From positions 1 through 47,247 of the forward strand of contig JACDUA010000032.1 of NCBI GenBank assembly GCA_013519935.1: a stretch of 47,247 bases of DNA, read 5' to 3'. The position numbers and the translations under genes are program-made. Of this stretch, positions 33,186 through 40,164 are shown one piece after another (the stretch's first letter is position 1; each line of letters starts with the position of its first letter). Source of the stretch: Ectothiorhodospiraceae bacterium WFHF3C12. Lineage in GTDB: Bacteria; Pseudomonadota; Gammaproteobacteria; Nitrococcales; Nitrococcaceae. The notes under the pieces are model-generated. The model saw only the letters and a program-made list of their open reading frames with translations. It did no database searches and was not told where the DNA came from.

Positions 33186-33761
33186 TCAGAAGTAGTAGCG
33201 GCCGCCGAGTAACAGTGTTTCCTGTTCGTCGGTGAGCTCCAGCTCCGCGCCGGCGGCGATCTCGGGGACGAACTTGAAGTACGCGGTGCCGTAGATGCCG
33301 GTATCGTCGTCATCGTCCAGCTCGTAGTGCACCAGGCCGCCGCCCAGGTCCAGCTGGGGCACGGCGCTGGTGCGCACGCCGGCACGCAGGCCCAGGCCGT
33401 CGGTATCCTCGTCGCGGCCGTTGCTCTCCCATTCCCGGTCGAGATAGAAGAGCTCGCCCACCAGGTCGGTGGTCGGGGAGATGGGTGCATGACCGCCGGC
33501 GCCGATGGTGAAGTCGGTGCGCTCCAGCGAGCCGTCATAGTCCCAGCTGGAGAACGAGCCCAGGACGTGGAGGTAGGGCGCCGGCGAGAACGAGCCGTCC
33601 ACCCGGATGCCGTCGCCGTCGGTGTCGGCGTTGCCGTCGTCGATCTCGGTCAGCCCCAGGCTCACGCCGGCGTGGTTGTAGTTCGGGCCCGCCCAGGCGG
33701 CCGTGGTCATGGCGGTGGCCGCGAGTAGCGCGACCGTGGTCAGGCTGTATTTAATGCGCAT
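33186..33761 (-). CDS. Outer-membrane beta-barrel protein
   Basis: A 191-residue exported protein: signal peptide (1-24, ending TAAWA), then alternating beta strands with acidic turns, ending in GGRYYF, whose C-terminal Phe is the BAM recognition signature. The size and repeated strand pattern suggest an eight- to ten-stranded barrel. Asp/Glu-rich loops (DDGNADTDGDG, ELDDDDDTG) suit calcium binding or high salt. ATG 33761 is chosen because GGGAG lies ten bases upstream; Met at 33770 is too close to it. Function unknown. Confidence 0.75.
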   Translation of the reverse strand: MRIKYSLTTVALLAATAMTTAAWAGPNYNHAGVSLGLTEIDDGNADTDGDGIRVDGSFSPAPYLHVLGSFSSWDYDGSLERTDFTIGAGGHAPISPTTDLVGELFYLDREWESNGRDEDTDGLGLRAGVRTSAVPQLDLGGGLVHYELDDDDDTGIYGTAYFKFVPEIAAGAELELTDEQETLLLGGRYYF

Positions 33762-33920
33762 AGATGTCATGCTCCCTTTATCGGACTCAGGCTGAAACGA
33801 CCCGGCCGCAACCGGGCCGCCGGCCCCGTCAACCGCCAGTTTTGGGGCGCCGGGAGGGGTTTCAAATGTCGCCAGGCGGCGACGACTGGGCCGACGGGAC
33901 GATGCTTTCCGGGAGGGGAA

Positions 33921-34430
33921 ATGCCGCTGCGAACACTGGCTCGGATTCTCAAGGCGCTGAATTCCGAGGCCTCGCCGGCCCAGCTGGCGGGCGCCGCCTG
34001 CCTCGGCATGGTCATGGGGCTGACGCCGCTGTGGAGCCTGCACAACCTCCTGGTGCTGCTGCTGGCCCTGGTGCTGCGGGTCAATCTCTCCGCGTTTCTG
34101 CTGGTATTCGTGCTAACGACCGGGATCGCCTACCTGGCCGACCCGCTGTTCGACGCGTTGGGCTGGGCGTTACTGACCGCCGGGGCGCTGGAGCCGATGT
34201 GGACGGCGCTGTACAACACCACGCTCGGCCGCCTGTCCGATTTCAACAACACGGTGGTGCTGGGCAGCCTGGTGGTGGCGCTGGTGCTCTGTCCGTTGGT
34301 CTACGCAGTGCTGGTCCGGGCAGTGAAACGCTATCGCGATCATGTTCAGAGCTGGGTGAAGCGCACCCATCTCTATCAGGCGATCCGCGGTTCGCGTTTC
34401 TTCGAGGTGTATTCGGCGTTGCGCGGCTGA
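33921..34430 (+). CDS. TIGR03546/DUF2062-like small membrane protein
   Basis: A 169-residue inner-membrane protein with three or four hydrophobic segments (about 20-60, 64-90 and 115-140) and a basic C-terminal tail. The N-terminal part SPAQLAGAACLGMVMGLTPL and RVNLSAFLL have the DUF2062 look. I recognise it as the TIGR03546 family, which is found paired with TIGR03545, the next gene. GGGAGGGGAA precedes ATG 33921 and the gap to the next gene is 48 bp, so the two form an operon. Function undescribed; see findings. Confidence 0.78.
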   Translation: MPLRTLARILKALNSEASPAQLAGAACLGMVMGLTPLWSLHNLLVLLLALVLRVNLSAFLLVFVLTTGIAYLADPLFDALGWALLTAGALEPMWTALYNTTLGRLSDFNNTVVLGSLVVALVLCPLVYAVLVRAVKRYRDHVQSWVKRTHLYQAIRGSRFFEVYSALRG

Positions 34431-34478
34431 AGGCACGATCGCGCCTCGCATGCGTTTGAGAGCTTGAGGGAGAACCCG

Positions 34479-36197
34479 ATGTTGCGTTGGTTGCGCTGGC
34501 AGGGACTGGTGGGCTTCGTCGTGGTGATGGCCCTTCTCGCCGGCAGCTGGGTGCTGTTCGCCGACCGGCTGGTCAAGTGGGCCGTGGAGGGCACGGGCAC
34601 GGCCATGGTCGGTGCGCGGGTGGAGCTGGACAGCGCGGATGTCGCCCTCGCGCCGCTGCGGATCGAGATGCAGGGCCTGCGCGTGACCAACCCCAACGCG
34701 CCGATGCGCAACGCCTTCGAGGCCGGCCGGATCGCCTTCGACGCCGACACGCTGGGTCTGCTCCTGGACCGGGTGGATATTGGCGAGGTGGCCGTGGAGG
34801 GGCTACGGCTGAATACGCCGCGGGAGCGTAGCGGCGCGGTCGGACGCCCGCCCAGTGAAGGCCCCGGCCTTCTGGACAGGACGGCGCGCAGCCTGGAAAT
34901 TCCGGCCCTGGAGCTGCCGACCGCGGAGCAGGCCCTGGCCGCGGCGCAGCTGCGCAGCCCCGGCGTCATCGAGGCCGCCCGCGAGGACATGCGCCGGCAG
35001 CGCGACACGCTCGAGCAGCGGGTGGATGAGCTGCCGACCGAGGCGTCCATCGCCGATTACGAGTCGCGGCTGGAGCGTATCCGCGAGGGCGGCGGCGACC
35101 TGACCGGGCGACTCTCCCAGGCCCGCGACGCCAAGGCACTGCTGGATGACGTCCGCGGCGATCTCAAAGCGGTTCGCAAGGCCCGGGATGCCGCCCGCGA
35201 GACCGTTTCGGCGGCGGAGGATAATGCCCGGAAGGCCCGCGAGGCCCCCGAAGCCGACATCCGCCGCCTGGTGGACAAATACAGCGACCCGGCCACGGTG
35301 GCCCAGGAGCTGGTGCGCTATGTCCTCGGCCCCCGGGTTGCCGGCTGGGTGAACGGCGGCTGGTACTGGTATCAGCGCCTCGCGCCGTACCTGGGCCGCC
35401 TGCAGGGCGGGGAGGACGAACCGCCCGCAGTGAAAGTGCCCCGCAGCGAGGGCCGCCGGGTGATCTTCACGGAGGCCGATCCGCGGCCGGAAACGCTGGT
35501 GCGGCGCGTGGCGTTGAGCGGTGCCGGCGGCGAGGGCACGCTGGGCGGAGAAATCACCGACATCGCGGCGCCGGCGAGCCTTTGGCCGCGGCCGCTGCGA
35601 TTCGACCTGCGCGGAAACGACCTGCCCGGGCTCGCCGGACTGGCGGCGCAGGGGCAGCTGCGGCAGGCGGCCGGCCAGTCCCGGGCGGATGTCTCGCTGC
35701 AGCTGAGCGGCGCGGCCCTGTCGGCCGATGCGCCCGACGCGGGCGGTATCGCCATCGAAGACGGCATCGCCGACCTCGAAATCGACGGTCAGGTGGGTGC
35801 GGGGACTCTGGACCTGCGCCTGGACGGGCGCTTTCGCCAGGTCGGTTTCGCTCTCGGCGCCGAGGCCGGCGAGCGGGTCCGGCAAATGGGCGAGCTGCTC
35901 GAGGGTGTTTCGAGCTTCGACCTGTCCGTGCGCATCACCGGTACGCCGGAATCCCCGGAGCTCGCCCTGCGCAGCAGCCTCGCGGACACCCTGAAGCGCA
36001 TGGTGGGCCAGGTGGCCGGGCAGAAGGTCCAGGCGTTTCGGGCCGCGCTGCGGGACAGGATTGGCGAGCGCGTCGCCGAGCCCCTGGCCGCGGTGGACGA
36101 AAACCTGGAGGCGCTGCGCGGCGCCGAGCAGACCATCGCCGATCGGCAAAGCCGGCTCAAGGCGCTGGAGGATCGACTCGGTCGCATTCTGGGGTAG
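34479..36197 (+). CDS. TIGR03545 family AsmA-like protein
   Basis: A 572-residue protein with one N-terminal membrane anchor (about 8-30) and a large periplasmic part. The first 110 residues (GARVELDSADVALAPLRIEM.. and VAVEGLRL) have the AsmA/chorein-type N-terminal pattern; about 135-265 is a long charged coiled coil (RQRDTLEQRVDEL.., KAVRKARDAARETVSAAEDN); the remainder is beta-rich, with a final helix (about 510-570). Recognised as TIGR03545, the partner of TIGR03546. ATG 34479 with GAGGGAG upstream. A role in lipid transport between membranes is inference from AsmA similarity. Confidence 0.78.
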   Translation: MLRWLRWQGLVGFVVVMALLAGSWVLFADRLVKWAVEGTGTAMVGARVELDSADVALAPLRIEMQGLRVTNPNAPMRNAFEAGRIAFDADTLGLLLDRVDIGEVAVEGLRLNTPRERSGAVGRPPSEGPGLLDRTARSLEIPALELPTAEQALAAAQLRSPGVIEAAREDMRRQRDTLEQRVDELPTEASIADYESRLERIREGGGDLTGRLSQARDAKALLDDVRGDLKAVRKARDAARETVSAAEDNARKAREAPEADIRRLVDKYSDPATVAQELVRYVLGPRVAGWVNGGWYWYQRLAPYLGRLQGGEDEPPAVKVPRSEGRRVIFTEADPRPETLVRRVALSGAGGEGTLGGEITDIAAPASLWPRPLRFDLRGNDLPGLAGLAAQGQLRQAAGQSRADVSLQLSGAALSADAPDAGGIAIEDGIADLEIDGQVGAGTLDLRLDGRFRQVGFALGAEAGERVRQMGELLEGVSSFDLSVRITGTPESPELALRSSLADTLKRMVGQVAGQKVQAFRAALRDRIGERVAEPLAAVDENLEALRGAEQTIADRQSRLKALEDRLGRILG

Positions 36198-36315
36198 CGC
36201 GGCTGGTGTTCCGTGTTTCCGCCGCGCCATAATCGGGGCGGGGTAACAAGCAGCACTGGACGGGGTTGGCATCGACCAAGGAAGAAGACGGGCGTAACGC
36301 CCAGGAGGTCAGGAC

Positions 36316-36993
36316 ATGTTCGATCTGAATAAGCGAGCCGGCAGCAGGGAGGCACCGGAGCTTCCCGATACCGAGCCCCAGTTTCCCGAGAGCCGCGGCA
36401 AGGAACCCGCCCCGGGCGCGCGCGTCCGCGAAGCGGCGATCATCGGTCCGTCCATTCACATCGAGGGCGATCTGCGCGGTGAGGAGGACCTGGTCATCGA
36501 GGGTGAGGTCAAAGGCACCATCCATCTCTCCGAGCACAGCCTCACGGTCGGCAGCAAGGGCAAGATCGAGGCCGACGTTTACGCCCATACCATCGTTGTC
36601 GACGGCAACCTCGAGGGTGATCTCTACGGCTCCGAGCGCGTCGCCATCCGCAAGAACGGCCAGGTCCGGGGAAACATCATCTCACCGCGGGTAAGCCTGG
36701 AGGACGGCGGGCGCTTCAAGGGCAGCGTGGAGATGGATGAAGAGGCCGTCGCCAAGGTCTTCGGCCGTGCCGCCGTCAAGGCCTCCGCCGATACCGGAAG
36801 CAGTCAGGGCGCGGGCGCTTCCTCATCGGCTGCCGGCCAGAGCGCATCATCCGGCAAGCCGGCGGCGGACAGCTCGAGCGAGTCCGGACAATCCGGTGCC
36901 ACCGGTTCCTCCGGGCAGTCGGGGGCCGCGGCCCAGAGCGGCTCCGCCAAAGGCACCAGTGGCTCATCCGGCAAGGGCAGCGTGGCCGGTTGA
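36316..36993 (+). CDS. Bactofilin
   Basis: A 225-residue polymer-forming cytoskeletal protein. The bactofilin beta-helix (about 40-140) shows the repeating turns IHIEGDLRGEEDLVIEGEVKG.., HTIVVDGNLEGDLYGSERV and GQVRGNIISPRVSLEDGG. The N-terminal 35 residues are polar and Pro-rich; the C-terminal 70 are a Ser/Gly/Ala low-complexity tail. Bactofilins form filaments on the inner membrane and shape the envelope. AGGAGG lies eight bases before ATG 36316. It follows the TIGR03545 gene by 118 bp in the same direction. Confidence 0.92.
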   Translation: MFDLNKRAGSREAPELPDTEPQFPESRGKEPAPGARVREAAIIGPSIHIEGDLRGEEDLVIEGEVKGTIHLSEHSLTVGSKGKIEADVYAHTIVVDGNLEGDLYGSERVAIRKNGQVRGNIISPRVSLEDGGRFKGSVEMDEEAVAKVFGRAAVKASADTGSSQGAGASSSAAGQSASSGKPAADSSSESGQSGATGSSGQSGAAAQSGSAKGTSGSSGKGSVAG

Positions 36994-37078: not shown

Positions 37079-37729
37079 ATGCGCCACATGGACGCCTTGA
37101 CGAGCGCCTCGGGCTCGAGCGTGTCATCCAGCGCCCCACCGGAGGCCGTCGGCACGCGCTGCCCGCTGCTCCTCGGCCACCTGGAGACGCGCAACCCACA
37201 GCGCCGGATCGTGGTTGCCGATACCGCCCGGGCTTCGCCGCGGAGCCTGGCCGCGTACGCTCACCTCCGCGGGCGCTTTGCGTTCCTGGGTATTCCCGAC
37301 GAGCTCACCGCGCAGGGCGAGGACGTGGTCGACGCCCTGGCTGCCGGGCTGGCTCGGTACGGCGCCCGGGTCCAGGACCTGATGCTGCTGTGGGATCTCC
37401 CCAACTACCTGGACGCGGACGGCCTGGCGCGGATGGCCGTGGCCTTGCGTCGCGGCCTGCGCACCGGCGGCCGGCTGCACATGCTGGTGGCCAGCTCTCA
37501 GCGTTGGGTCTCGGACCGGCCCGGCCATTACGAGATACTGCCCGGCTGGGCCGGGGTGGTGGTCGAGCAGGGCGAGCCGGTGCGACAGGCGCCACGGTAC
37601 ACGCCCTGGCAGGTGGAGCAGGCGTTCCAGGGCTTCGAAACCGAGCGGTCCGTGCTGCTGCGAAGCGGCATGCAGGAATACCTGTTGCGGTTGAAGATGA
37701 GCGCCTCGACGCCCGATGAGGCGGGGTGA
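37079..37729 (+). CDS. Hypothetical protein, weak methyltransferase-fold resemblance
   Basis: A 216-residue cytoplasmic protein I cannot place firmly. A central stretch (QDLMLLWDLPNYLDADGLARMAVALRRGLRTGGRLHMLV, written in parts: LLWDLPNYLD, then ALRRGLRTGGRLHML) looks like the second half of a Rossmann methyltransferase, but the glycine-rich SAM motif is missing. The ends are polar. ATG 37079 has no good ribosome site; ATG 37088 is an alternative. It precedes a 480-bp AT-rich region. Confidence 0.6.
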   Translation: MRHMDALTSASGSSVSSSAPPEAVGTRCPLLLGHLETRNPQRRIVVADTARASPRSLAAYAHLRGRFAFLGIPDELTAQGEDVVDALAAGLARYGARVQDLMLLWDLPNYLDADGLARMAVALRRGLRTGGRLHMLVASSQRWVSDRPGHYEILPGWAGVVVEQGEPVRQAPRYTPWQVEQAFQGFETERSVLLRSGMQEYLLRLKMSASTPDEAG

Positions 37730-38209: not shown

Positions 38210-39202
38210 ATGACAACGGCTGTGCTGATCTGCGACGACTCGGCTATGGCGCGCAAGCAGATCGCCCGGGCCCTGCCCGAGGGCTGGGACGTCAGCATCC
38301 GCTTCTCGGCCGACGGGCGCGAGGCGCTGGACGCGGTCTCACGGGGACAGGCCGATGTGCTGTTCCTCGACCTCAACATGCCGGGGATGGACGGCTACGA
38401 GGTACTCGCCGAGGTTGGCCGCCGGGATCTGTCCACGGTGGTCATCGTCGTCTCCGGGGACGTGCAGCCCGCGGCTCATCGCAAGGTCATGTCCCTCGGT
38501 GCCCTCGACTTCATCCGCAAACCCGTGGCCGCGGCGGAGCTCGAGCAGCTGCTGCGGCGATTCGGGTTGATCGACACCGCCGGTACCGGCGGGCCTGCCG
38601 CGGTGCCGCGAACCGAGGTGGATCTGCTCGACGCCGCCCGCGAGGTGGCCAATGTCGCCATGGGCCAGGCCGCCGACCGGCTGGCCCGGCTGCTGAACGT
38701 CTTCGTGTTGCTGCCCGTGCCCAATGTGGCCCGGCTGGCGCCTTCGGAACTGCGCATGGCCATGCAGGCGGTGGAGGAGCGGGACACGATCTCCGCCGTC
38801 TCCCAGGGGTTCATCGGGGCCGGCATCGCCGGCGAGGCGCTGCTGCTGTTTCACGATTCCAGCTTCCAGGACATGGCCCGGCTGCTGAATATCGACGGCG
38901 AGCTGGAAGCCGGCGTGGAGCTGGAGCTGCTCATGGACGTGGCCAATCTGTTGATCGGGGCATGTCTCAACGGCATCGCCGAGCAGCTGGACATGAAGTT
39001 CAGCCAGGGCCATCCGGCCGTGCTGGGCCGTCATGCCCGGGTCTCGGAGATCCTGGAGGCCCGGGCGCCGCTGTGGTCGGAGACCCTGGCTGTCGAGATC
39101 AACTACGCGGTCGAAGACCATGACATCCACTGTGACCTGCTCGTGCTGTTCGCGGAGGATTCGGTCCCGGCCCTGAACGACAAACTGGCCCACCTGCTGT
39201 GA
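38210..39202 (+). CDS. Response regulator with C-terminal CheC-type phosphatase domain
   Basis: A 330-residue cytoplasmic protein. The receiver (1-120) is complete: Asp9/Asp10, phospho-acceptor Asp54 (LFLDLNMPGMDG), Ser82 and Lys104 (RKP). The C-terminal half (about 135-330) is CheC/CheX-like: AREVANVAMGQAADRLARLL keeps the E-x2-N phosphatase motif, while the second copy reads LLMDVANLLIGACLNGIA. CheC proteins dephosphorylate CheY, so this may act on its own or another receiver. GGGGAACGGAA precedes ATG 38210. Its stop overlaps the GTG of the diguanylate cyclase gene (GTGA), making a coupled pair. Confidence 0.85.
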   Translation: MTTAVLICDDSAMARKQIARALPEGWDVSIRFSADGREALDAVSRGQADVLFLDLNMPGMDGYEVLAEVGRRDLSTVVIVVSGDVQPAAHRKVMSLGALDFIRKPVAAAELEQLLRRFGLIDTAGTGGPAAVPRTEVDLLDAAREVANVAMGQAADRLARLLNVFVLLPVPNVARLAPSELRMAMQAVEERDTISAVSQGFIGAGIAGEALLLFHDSSFQDMARLLNIDGELEAGVELELLMDVANLLIGACLNGIAEQLDMKFSQGHPAVLGRHARVSEILEARAPLWSETLAVEINYAVEDHDIHCDLLVLFAEDSVPALNDKLAHLL

Positions 39203-40164
39203 ACGAGCGTCGCGCCAGCACCGATCTCGACCAGTTCCACTGGATCATGGACATGCTCCAGAGCGTGGATGTCGGTCTGGTGGTGCTGGACGCCGGGTAC
39301 AGAATCCGCCTGTGGAACGGGTTCATGGAGAATCACAGCGGCATGACGCCGGATGAGGTGCGTGGCGAGAGCCTGTTCGAGCTGTTTCCGGAAGTCCCGG
39401 AGGCGTGGTTCCGGCGCAAGGCCGACGGCGTGTTCCTGCTGCGTAACCGCGCCTTCACGATCTGGGAACAGAGACCCTACCTGTTTCGCTTCCGCAATTA
39501 CCGGCCCATTACCGGTACCGCGCAGCACATGTACCAGAACATCACCCTCATGCCGCTGGTGAGCCCGGATGGCCGGGTGGGGCATATCTGCCTGCAGGTC
39601 TACGACGTCACCGAGGCGGCGGTCAGCCGCGGCGCGCTGGAGCGCGCGAACGACCGGCTGGAGGTGCTCAGCCGCACCGACTCGCTCACCGGGCTGCTCA
39701 ACCGCGGTGCCTGGGAGGAGGCGGTGGCGGAAGAGTTCCGGCGTTACCAGCGCACCGGTCAGGTGGCCTCACTGGTGATGTTCGACATCGATCATTTCAA
39801 GCACGTCAACGATACCCATGGCCATCCTGCCGGGGACGCCGTGATCCGGCAGGTGGCCGCCGTGTTGCGGGAGAACACGCGCCAGACGGATATCGGGGGC
39901 CGCTATGGGGGCGAGGAATTCGCGGTGGTGCTCATCGACACCGACGGCGAGCATGCACGCGTATTCGCCGAGCGGCTCCGGACCCAGGTGGAGGCCGCGG
40001 TGGCGCAGCACGAAGGGGAGCGGCTGCAGGTTACGATCAGCCTGGGTATCGCGCCCCTCGGGCCCGGGATCGGCGGTCACGCACAGTGGATCGAGCATGC
40101 GGACGCGGGTTTGTATGCCTCCAAGCGCGGCGGGCGCAACCGCTATACCCTGTATCGTCCCTGA
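39199..40164 (+). CDS. PAS-GGDEF diguanylate cyclase
   Basis: A 321-residue cytoplasmic protein with an N-terminal PAS-like domain (about 15-145) and a GGDEF domain (about 155-320). The active-site signature is GGEEF (237-241) and the RQTD I-site (228-231) lies five residues upstream, so it should make c-di-GMP and be feedback-inhibited. DSLTGLLNR and FDIDHFKHVNDTHGH are canonical. Its GTG start overlaps the upstream REC-CheC stop by four bases. The pair probably couples a chemotaxis-like phosphorelay to c-di-GMP output. Confidence 0.92.
   Translation: MNERRASTDLDQFHWIMDMLQSVDVGLVVLDAGYRIRLWNGFMENHSGMTPDEVRGESLFELFPEVPEAWFRRKADGVFLLRNRAFTIWEQRPYLFRFRNYRPITGTAQHMYQNITLMPLVSPDGRVGHICLQVYDVTEAAVSRGALERANDRLEVLSRTDSLTGLLNRGAWEEAVAEEFRRYQRTGQVASLVMFDIDHFKHVNDTHGHPAGDAVIRQVAAVLRENTRQTDIGGRYGGEEFAVVLIDTDGEHARVFAERLRTQVEAAVAQHEGERLQVTISLGIAPLGPGIGGHAQWIEHADAGLYASKRGGRNRYTLYRP

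Follow-up and report, generated by a model that had tools for sequence, protein, structure and literature searches.

Genes at the locus

The window, i.e. the whole 47,247-nucleotide stretch of DNA analysed here, carries two adjacent genes on its plus strand, each assigned to a protein family by profile matches.

33921..34430, plus strand: TIGR03546 / DUF2062 inner-membrane protein, 169 aa (profile matches)
34479..36197, plus strand: TIGR03545 AsmA-like anchored protein, 572 aa (ORF open from TTG 34464)

The first ORF scored 172.3 bits against the TIGR03546 profile (cut-off 79.45) and 51.5 bits against DUF2062 (PF09835, gathering cut-off 27.4), and DUF2062 was matched by all 63 aligned TIGR03546 homologues (E ≤ 0.01). 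As judged by these profiles, the TIGR03546 protein of the window is a divergent DUF2062 membrane protein, in agreement with an earlier note on this DNA, in which a small DUF2062-like membrane protein had been recognised. DUF2062 is also found fused to glycosyltransferases in some bacteria.

The second ORF (34464-36197, plus strand) scored 288.8 bits with the TIGR03545 profile (cut-off 173.35) and covers nearly the whole of it. ATG 34479 is a likelier start than TTG 34464 because GAGGGAG lies just upstream. Taken alone, the window protein matches DUF748 weakly (19.7 bits, under the 50-bit cut-off); among the 63 aligned TIGR03545 proteins, DUF748 matches 44 (best E 2.4e-15) and the AsmA profile 25 (best E 4.1e-8), both at E ≤ 0.01. 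By profile, the TIGR03545 protein is a member of the AsmA-like group, and the anchored protein with an AsmA-like N-terminus described in the earlier note is thus recovered. The 63-sequence alignment comprises the window, 6 class loci and 56 of the 60 named loci described below, with a duplicate (L034) and three fragments (L049, L053 and L071) excluded. The same genome also encodes an AsmA protein scoring 196.5 bits, and a frame of 1032 aa matches AsmA weakly.

The pair is flanked by rimO upstream, a divergent outer-membrane-barrel-like ORF and, downstream as had been noted, a bactofilin gene (36316-36993, PF04519, E 1.4e-24). The divergent ORF, on the minus strand between rimO and the pair (33186-34043), stays below cut-off with both the OmpO/Ax21 porin family (42 of 250 bits) and OMP_b-brl (23.8 of 28.7 bits); its true start is probably further in, since its 5' part overlaps the start of TIGR03546. 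After the bactofilin gene, three further ORFs lie on the plus strand: 37079-37729 encodes 216 aa and has no NCBIfam (E ≤ 0.1) or Pfam (E ≤ 1) match, 38210-39202 encodes a response-regulator receiver with, after it, a weak CheX/CheC-like stretch that stays under cut-off, and the translation of 39199-40164 contains a GGEEF stretch, which we take to be the diguanylate cyclase motif. A scan of 33600-36500 found no promoter and five terminator-like sites, against 1.0 expected.

Pairing of TIGR03546 and TIGR03545 across genomes

Both families were searched in a class set (185 genomes), a phylum set (299 genomes) and family f140 (79 genomes), some genomes being common to the sets. TIGR03546 was over its cut-off in 51 distinct genomes and TIGR03545 adjoins it on the same contig and strand in every one, with 50-185 nt between the two profile matches. 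In one of the 51 (G049) TIGR03545 is under its own cut-off; this genome was counted as its fused frame has TIGR03546 over cut-off. TIGR03545 itself was over cut-off in 59 distinct genomes, nine of them without TIGR03546. In the class set it had a match at E ≤ 0.001 in 75 genomes and was over cut-off in only 7; apart from G049, the other matches were partial (N-terminal, helical or C-terminal) and were left uncounted.

In family f140, 41 genomes have both genes, nine have TIGR03545 only, none has TIGR03546 only and 29 have neither (Fisher p 5e-14, uncorrected for phylogeny). The pair is dispensable, being absent from those 29 of the 79 genomes, and the pairing of the two families is far beyond chance. 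The co-occurrence across genomes that the earlier note called for is strong, although it is not symmetrical, as the nine genomes with TIGR03545 alone attest.

Named genomes were also scanned with two peptide patterns of TIGR03546, which yielded 60 loci (L034 being equal to L007); the patterns are gammaproteobacterial and say nothing on absence elsewhere, and some of the loci may repeat genomes of the other sets. These loci span Gammaproteobacteria, Desulfobacterota and other former Deltaproteobacteria, Nitrospirota, a Myxococcales, a Nitrospinaceae, Caldithrix and Gemmatimonadetes, and the gene following TIGR03546 is TIGR03545 in 60/60, which bears out the statement in the earlier note that the pair recurs in outer-membrane bacteria. 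With gene starts picked by a simple rule, 40 of the 59 unfused pairs overlap (32 by 4 nt, seven by 1 nt and one by 8 nt) and the other 19 are 0-36 nt apart; the spacing of 48 nt in the window is looser than in any of them.

Single-frame fusions, always with TIGR03546 first, were found at L010, L011, L091, L097 and L098; one (L091) is among the 60 named loci, and fusions also occur in genomes G047, G049, G285 and G348, of which G285 and G348 belong to the same genus. Two further fusions of this kind are in print, in a passage of PMC4035852.

Two loci carry disrupted genes. On a Nitrospiraceae contig (L092:7005-7490) TIGR03546 is broken into two reading frames next to a TIGR03545 frame that is open. 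In G491 (contig C81:74973-76099) TIGR03546 has one internal TAG and TIGR03545 is cut to a 246-aa frame; here both partners seem to have decayed together, unless the assembly is at fault.

No third gene family was widespread among the loci, the best families being present in 10 of 61 at scattered places and on either strand; another recurrent neighbour block, in nine loci, is confined to Aliidiomarina/Idiomarina. Neither a conserved outer-membrane gene nor a conserved cargo, secretion or barrel-assembly gene was found beside the pair in the 61 loci. The bactofilin was rejected as a third component, as no other was present in the 60 named loci (ORFs of at least 90 aa, flanks of up to 7 kb, several contigs being shorter). 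Complementarity with TamB was likewise rejected: in f140, TamB is present in 28 of the 41 genomes that carry the pair and in 25 of the 38 that lack it (Fisher p 1.0).

Predicted architecture of the TIGR03545 protein

AlphaFold2 modelling of the window TIGR03545 protein with 63 sequences gave a pLDDT of 89.1 and a pTM of 0.71. An anchor helix (residues 7-44, family mean hydropathy 1.28) precedes the following elements.

34632..34820, plus strand: strands 1-5 (residues 52-114), AsmA/DUF748-like N-terminal part (predicted)
34956..35405, plus strand: helical insert (residues 160-309), predicted to bundle with the C-terminal helix
35493..35975, plus strand: strands 6-14 (residues 339-499) (predicted)
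35976..36191, plus strand: 72-residue C-terminal helix (residues 500-571) (predicted)

Thus, the helical middle and beta-rich remainder that had been read from the sequence are both seen in the model, most of which is helix outside the strands. In structure comparison the helical insert and the C-terminal helix jointly match helical bundles, and long helices are the dominant part of the structural matches. Foldseek gave no match at E ≤ 0.001, which is not evidence of a new fold. The match to the bridge protein LPD-3 (Z 7.4, rmsd 10.8, 257 aligned) equals that to a porin and is in the background range, and a sequence search of solved structures returned five weak matches, all in the helical region.

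Hydrophobicity alternates between the strand faces more than in shuffled sequences (p 0.0034 overall, with p < 0.05 reached singly in only two of the 14 strands), which is what a groove would need. If the ~14 predicted strands form one untilted sheet, the length of such a groove would have a ceiling of ~62 Å. Hence the groove that the earlier note looked for in a predicted structure is plausible in the model, but at this short length it would not span the periplasm, and the model agrees better with a short chute for loading lipid, extended by helices, than with a membrane-spanning bridge.

Conservation is highest in the anchor and the first strands (2.03 for strands 1-5) and lowest in the C-terminal helix and in strands 424-459 (1.10 for each), and helix 208-258 is also low (1.24). 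The short fusion L097 has 221 residues for 346 profile positions, ~125 fewer where the helices lie, and keeps both other parts; L011 and L098 are alike by reading. Given the low conservation of the helices and their shortening in the short fusions, the helical bundle seems to be an elaboration on a core that comprises the membrane protein together with the anchor and beta part.

TIGR03545 proteins without a partner

The nine f140 genomes with TIGR03545 and without TIGR03546 at E ≤ 1e-6 (L194-L202) are 99-100% complete, and no TIGR03546 match was present in the 5.6-5.8 kb around each solo gene. Their proteins were compared with 29 of the 41 f140 paired proteins, namely those fetched as loci, a column being taken as conserved when kept in at least 85% of these 29 and at least 80% of the 63 in the main alignment. 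Of 24 such columns, 18 are kept in the nine solos (78-100%) and six drop to 0-56%, gaps counting as loss: R6, G9, F13, G325, F330 and P337. All six fall in two short stretches, and the solo proteins keep the fold core.

34494..34517, plus strand: anchor motif R6-W7-x-G9-x-x-x-F13, putative intramembrane contact with TIGR03546
35451..35489, plus strand: loop G325-F330-P337 ahead of strand 6, also a putative TIGR03546 contact

The same result was obtained with alignment-free patterns. R..G...F is present in 55 of 63 proteins of the main alignment, 29/29 f140 paired proteins and 0/9 solos; for G....[FY]......P the numbers are 46/58 (five fragments of the 63 being omitted), 28/29 and 0/9. L009 and the fusion L091 are paired yet have neither pattern. 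The solos, L194-L202, are AsmA-like proteins with a changed anchor in which the loop before strand 6 is lost or changed.

In the tree, seven solos form one clade, L196 is on a long branch (support 0.79) and L199 is beside a paired protein (support 0.97). The solos thus probably belong to three lineages; seven of the nine are of common descent, and L196 is placed with weak support. An ftsB-like gene is near eight of nine solos and in six of 29 paired loci (1.5 kb flanks), and an ispD-like gene is also near eight of the nine solos. As ftsB is found near solos and some paired loci alike, TIGR03546 was probably lost in place in the solos; the presence of ftsB in just six of 29 paired loci marks this link as local.

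Residues 6, 9 and 13 would point to the same side of the anchor helix, close to where it begins, and it is likely, from the pattern of residue loss, that the two stretches are docking surfaces for TIGR03546. The partner-dependent motifs are a strong lead rather than proof, because the stretches were found in the data, without having been named beforehand, and most solos are of one origin.

Predicted fold of TIGR03546

The TIGR03546 model (pLDDT 88.9) has helices at 3-14, 19-34, 40-51, 56-72, 74-85, 88-98 and 111-148; the broken pairs 19-34/40-51 and 56-72/74-85 look re-entrant, and helices 3-14 and 88-98 are short. These elements were set against the DedA / VTT layout, in which an amphipathic helix, a re-entrant loop and a transmembrane helix make up a unit that occurs twice. 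Foldseek gave no match at E ≤ 0.001, which again does not speak for a new fold, and the best of 50 chains compared with the model was 8ahx_A (RNF; Z 4.7, 104 aligned, rmsd 4.5). A sequence search gave no solved relative at E ≤ 0.1.

Homology to DedA was considered and rejected. PF09335 (DedA / VTT) is absent among the four Pfam families matched by the 63 TIGR03546 proteins, and profile comparison gave 0.3 and 0.2%, against 1.3 and 0.2% for reversed decoys, a comparison of low power in which the known DUF2062 relation scores just 14-18%. PMC7818093, a paper on Tmem41b/DedA indexed once under PF09835, has no occurrence of it in its main text. TIGR03546 is thus DUF2062 and, at the level of sequence comparison, not detectably DedA.

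Discussion

The inner-membrane partner of an AsmA-like protein that the earlier note had considered plausible looks like a dedicated one, given the adjacency in 51/51 genomes and 60/60 loci, the overlaps, the fusions and the partner-dependent motifs, and TIGR03546 very probably docks onto the TIGR03545 protein. We see an even chance that the two make up a two-subunit envelope complex, in which TIGR03546 docks on AsmA-like TIGR03545 and supplies lipid to a short beta chute. Family membership, the coupling and fusion of the genes, the modelled layout of strands and helices and the partner-dependent motifs are observed; physical contact, lipid as the substrate, TIGR03546 as the loader and the role of the helices are inferred. 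In such a complex, TIGR03545 would be held in the inner membrane by its single N-terminal helix with the AsmA-like beta part in the periplasm, and TIGR03546 would dock at two places, the R6/G9/F13 face of the anchor and the G325-P337 loop. TIGR03546 would then most likely offer membrane lipid at the mouth of the chute, by scrambling, flipping or local perturbation of the bilayer; the short hydrophobic chute would shield the acyl chains, and the helical bundle may position the far end of the chute, or lengthen it, in the direction of the wall, the outer membrane or a further subunit. A more specific version, that TIGR03546 is a new type of inner-membrane lipid scramblase or extractor hard-wired to the AsmA-like chute via the R..G...F face and the G325-P337 loop, is put forward tentatively and is rather less likely to hold.

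TIGR03545 shares with the AsmA-like proteins (TamB, YhdP, YdbH, YhjG/DUF748, AsmA) one N-terminal inner-membrane helix, an AsmA/DUF748-like N-terminus and a beta-rich periplasmic part. It differs from them in its much smaller number of strands, in a large insert of helices and a helix at the C-terminus, and in having a dedicated inner-membrane partner whose gene often overlaps its own. SHIP164 is a eukaryotic, cytosolic protein with a groove much longer than the one proposed for TIGR03545. With this type of repeating-beta-groove protein, described in part of PMC7613979, TIGR03545 would share the combination of a groove with a coiled coil at the end of the protein. The proposed handing of lipid by a membrane protein to a beta groove recalls ATG2 and VPS13 with their scramblases (TMEM41B, XK) and the proposed DedA-AsmA arrangement, going by sections of PMC10127716 and PMC7613979, although TIGR03546 is DUF2062 and the TIGR03545 groove would be short. 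How lipid is extracted for AsmA-like proteins is treated as an unsettled point in a section of PMC10900882, and DedA as a membrane lipid transporter feeding an AsmA protein is a proposal only in the relevant part of PMC10127716. Both points are in keeping with the proposed complex, as is the action of a short AsmA-like groove on lipidated cargo in GspN (PMC12802150).

TamB has a role with outer-membrane proteins, and the pair, too, might handle a cargo that is not bulk phospholipid: nascent outer-membrane proteins, lipoproteins or a lipid linked to polyprenyl. According to excerpts of PMC12802150, type II secretion employs GspN, a short protein of the AsmA-like group with a predicted place at the inner membrane, for lipoproteins; its short AsmA-type groove would be a feature in common with TIGR03545, but it acts within a secretion machine, and those excerpts mention no DUF2062 partner. 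We consider another cargo unlikely, as no cargo, secretion or barrel-assembly gene is conserved beside the pair, and ftsB/ispD near eight of nine solos, with ftsB in six of 29 paired loci, is a local link.

A full lipid bridge from the inner to the outer membrane, of the TamB/YhdP/YdbH type and perhaps completed by some outer-membrane protein or stacked subunits, is decidedly improbable. It would accord with the AsmA-like profile match and the origin of the loci in outer-membrane phyla, and the 72-residue helix could add up to ~108 Å of reach if it points outward. However, ~14 strands would give at most ~62 Å, against the ~20 nm rods of known bacterial bridge-like proteins, a length taken from a passage of PMC7613979; no conserved outer-membrane gene adjoins the pair, and its presence is independent of TamB. 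Of the membrane lipid bridge foreseen in the earlier note, the AsmA-likeness is supported, and a groove long enough to join both membranes is not. Least probable of all is a scaffold or tether in which the helical bundle does the work (envelope spacing, cytoskeleton or wall contact) and the AsmA-like part is only structural: the dominance of long helices in the structural matches and the bactofilin in the window would suit it, but the C-terminal helix and helix 208-258 are among the least conserved parts (yet strands 424-459 are too), the short fusion L097 dispenses with ~125 residues of the helical stretch, and the search of the 60 other loci turned up no bactofilin.

The two-subunit complex supplying lipid to a short chute is thus the reading that we prefer. 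The Nautilia and Francisella TIGR03546-TIGR03545 genes, adjacent and fused, in a passage of PMC4035852 belong to the same families, which are called uncharacterised there and used as an orthology example only; this agrees with the earlier statement that the pair has no assigned function. By title and start of abstract, no paper retrieved for DUF2062 is about AsmA-like proteins, and none of the matches listed for the AsmA-like literature (DUF748, TamB, YhdP, scramblase) is on the pair, subscription papers and preprints falling mostly outside this scope. The families, their adjacency and the fusions were thus already known, and the dedicated-partner reading and the partner-dependent motifs appear to be new.

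TIGR03546 is a concrete candidate for the missing inner-membrane partner of AsmA-like proteins; the natural relatives without a partner point to the likely contact residues, and the question can be tested on two small genes. If the scramblase or extractor version is true, the pair would correspond in bacteria to the ATG2-TMEM41B or VPS13-XK partnerships, and TIGR03546 would be the first inner-membrane protein to be genetically coupled, as a partner, to an AsmA-like protein.
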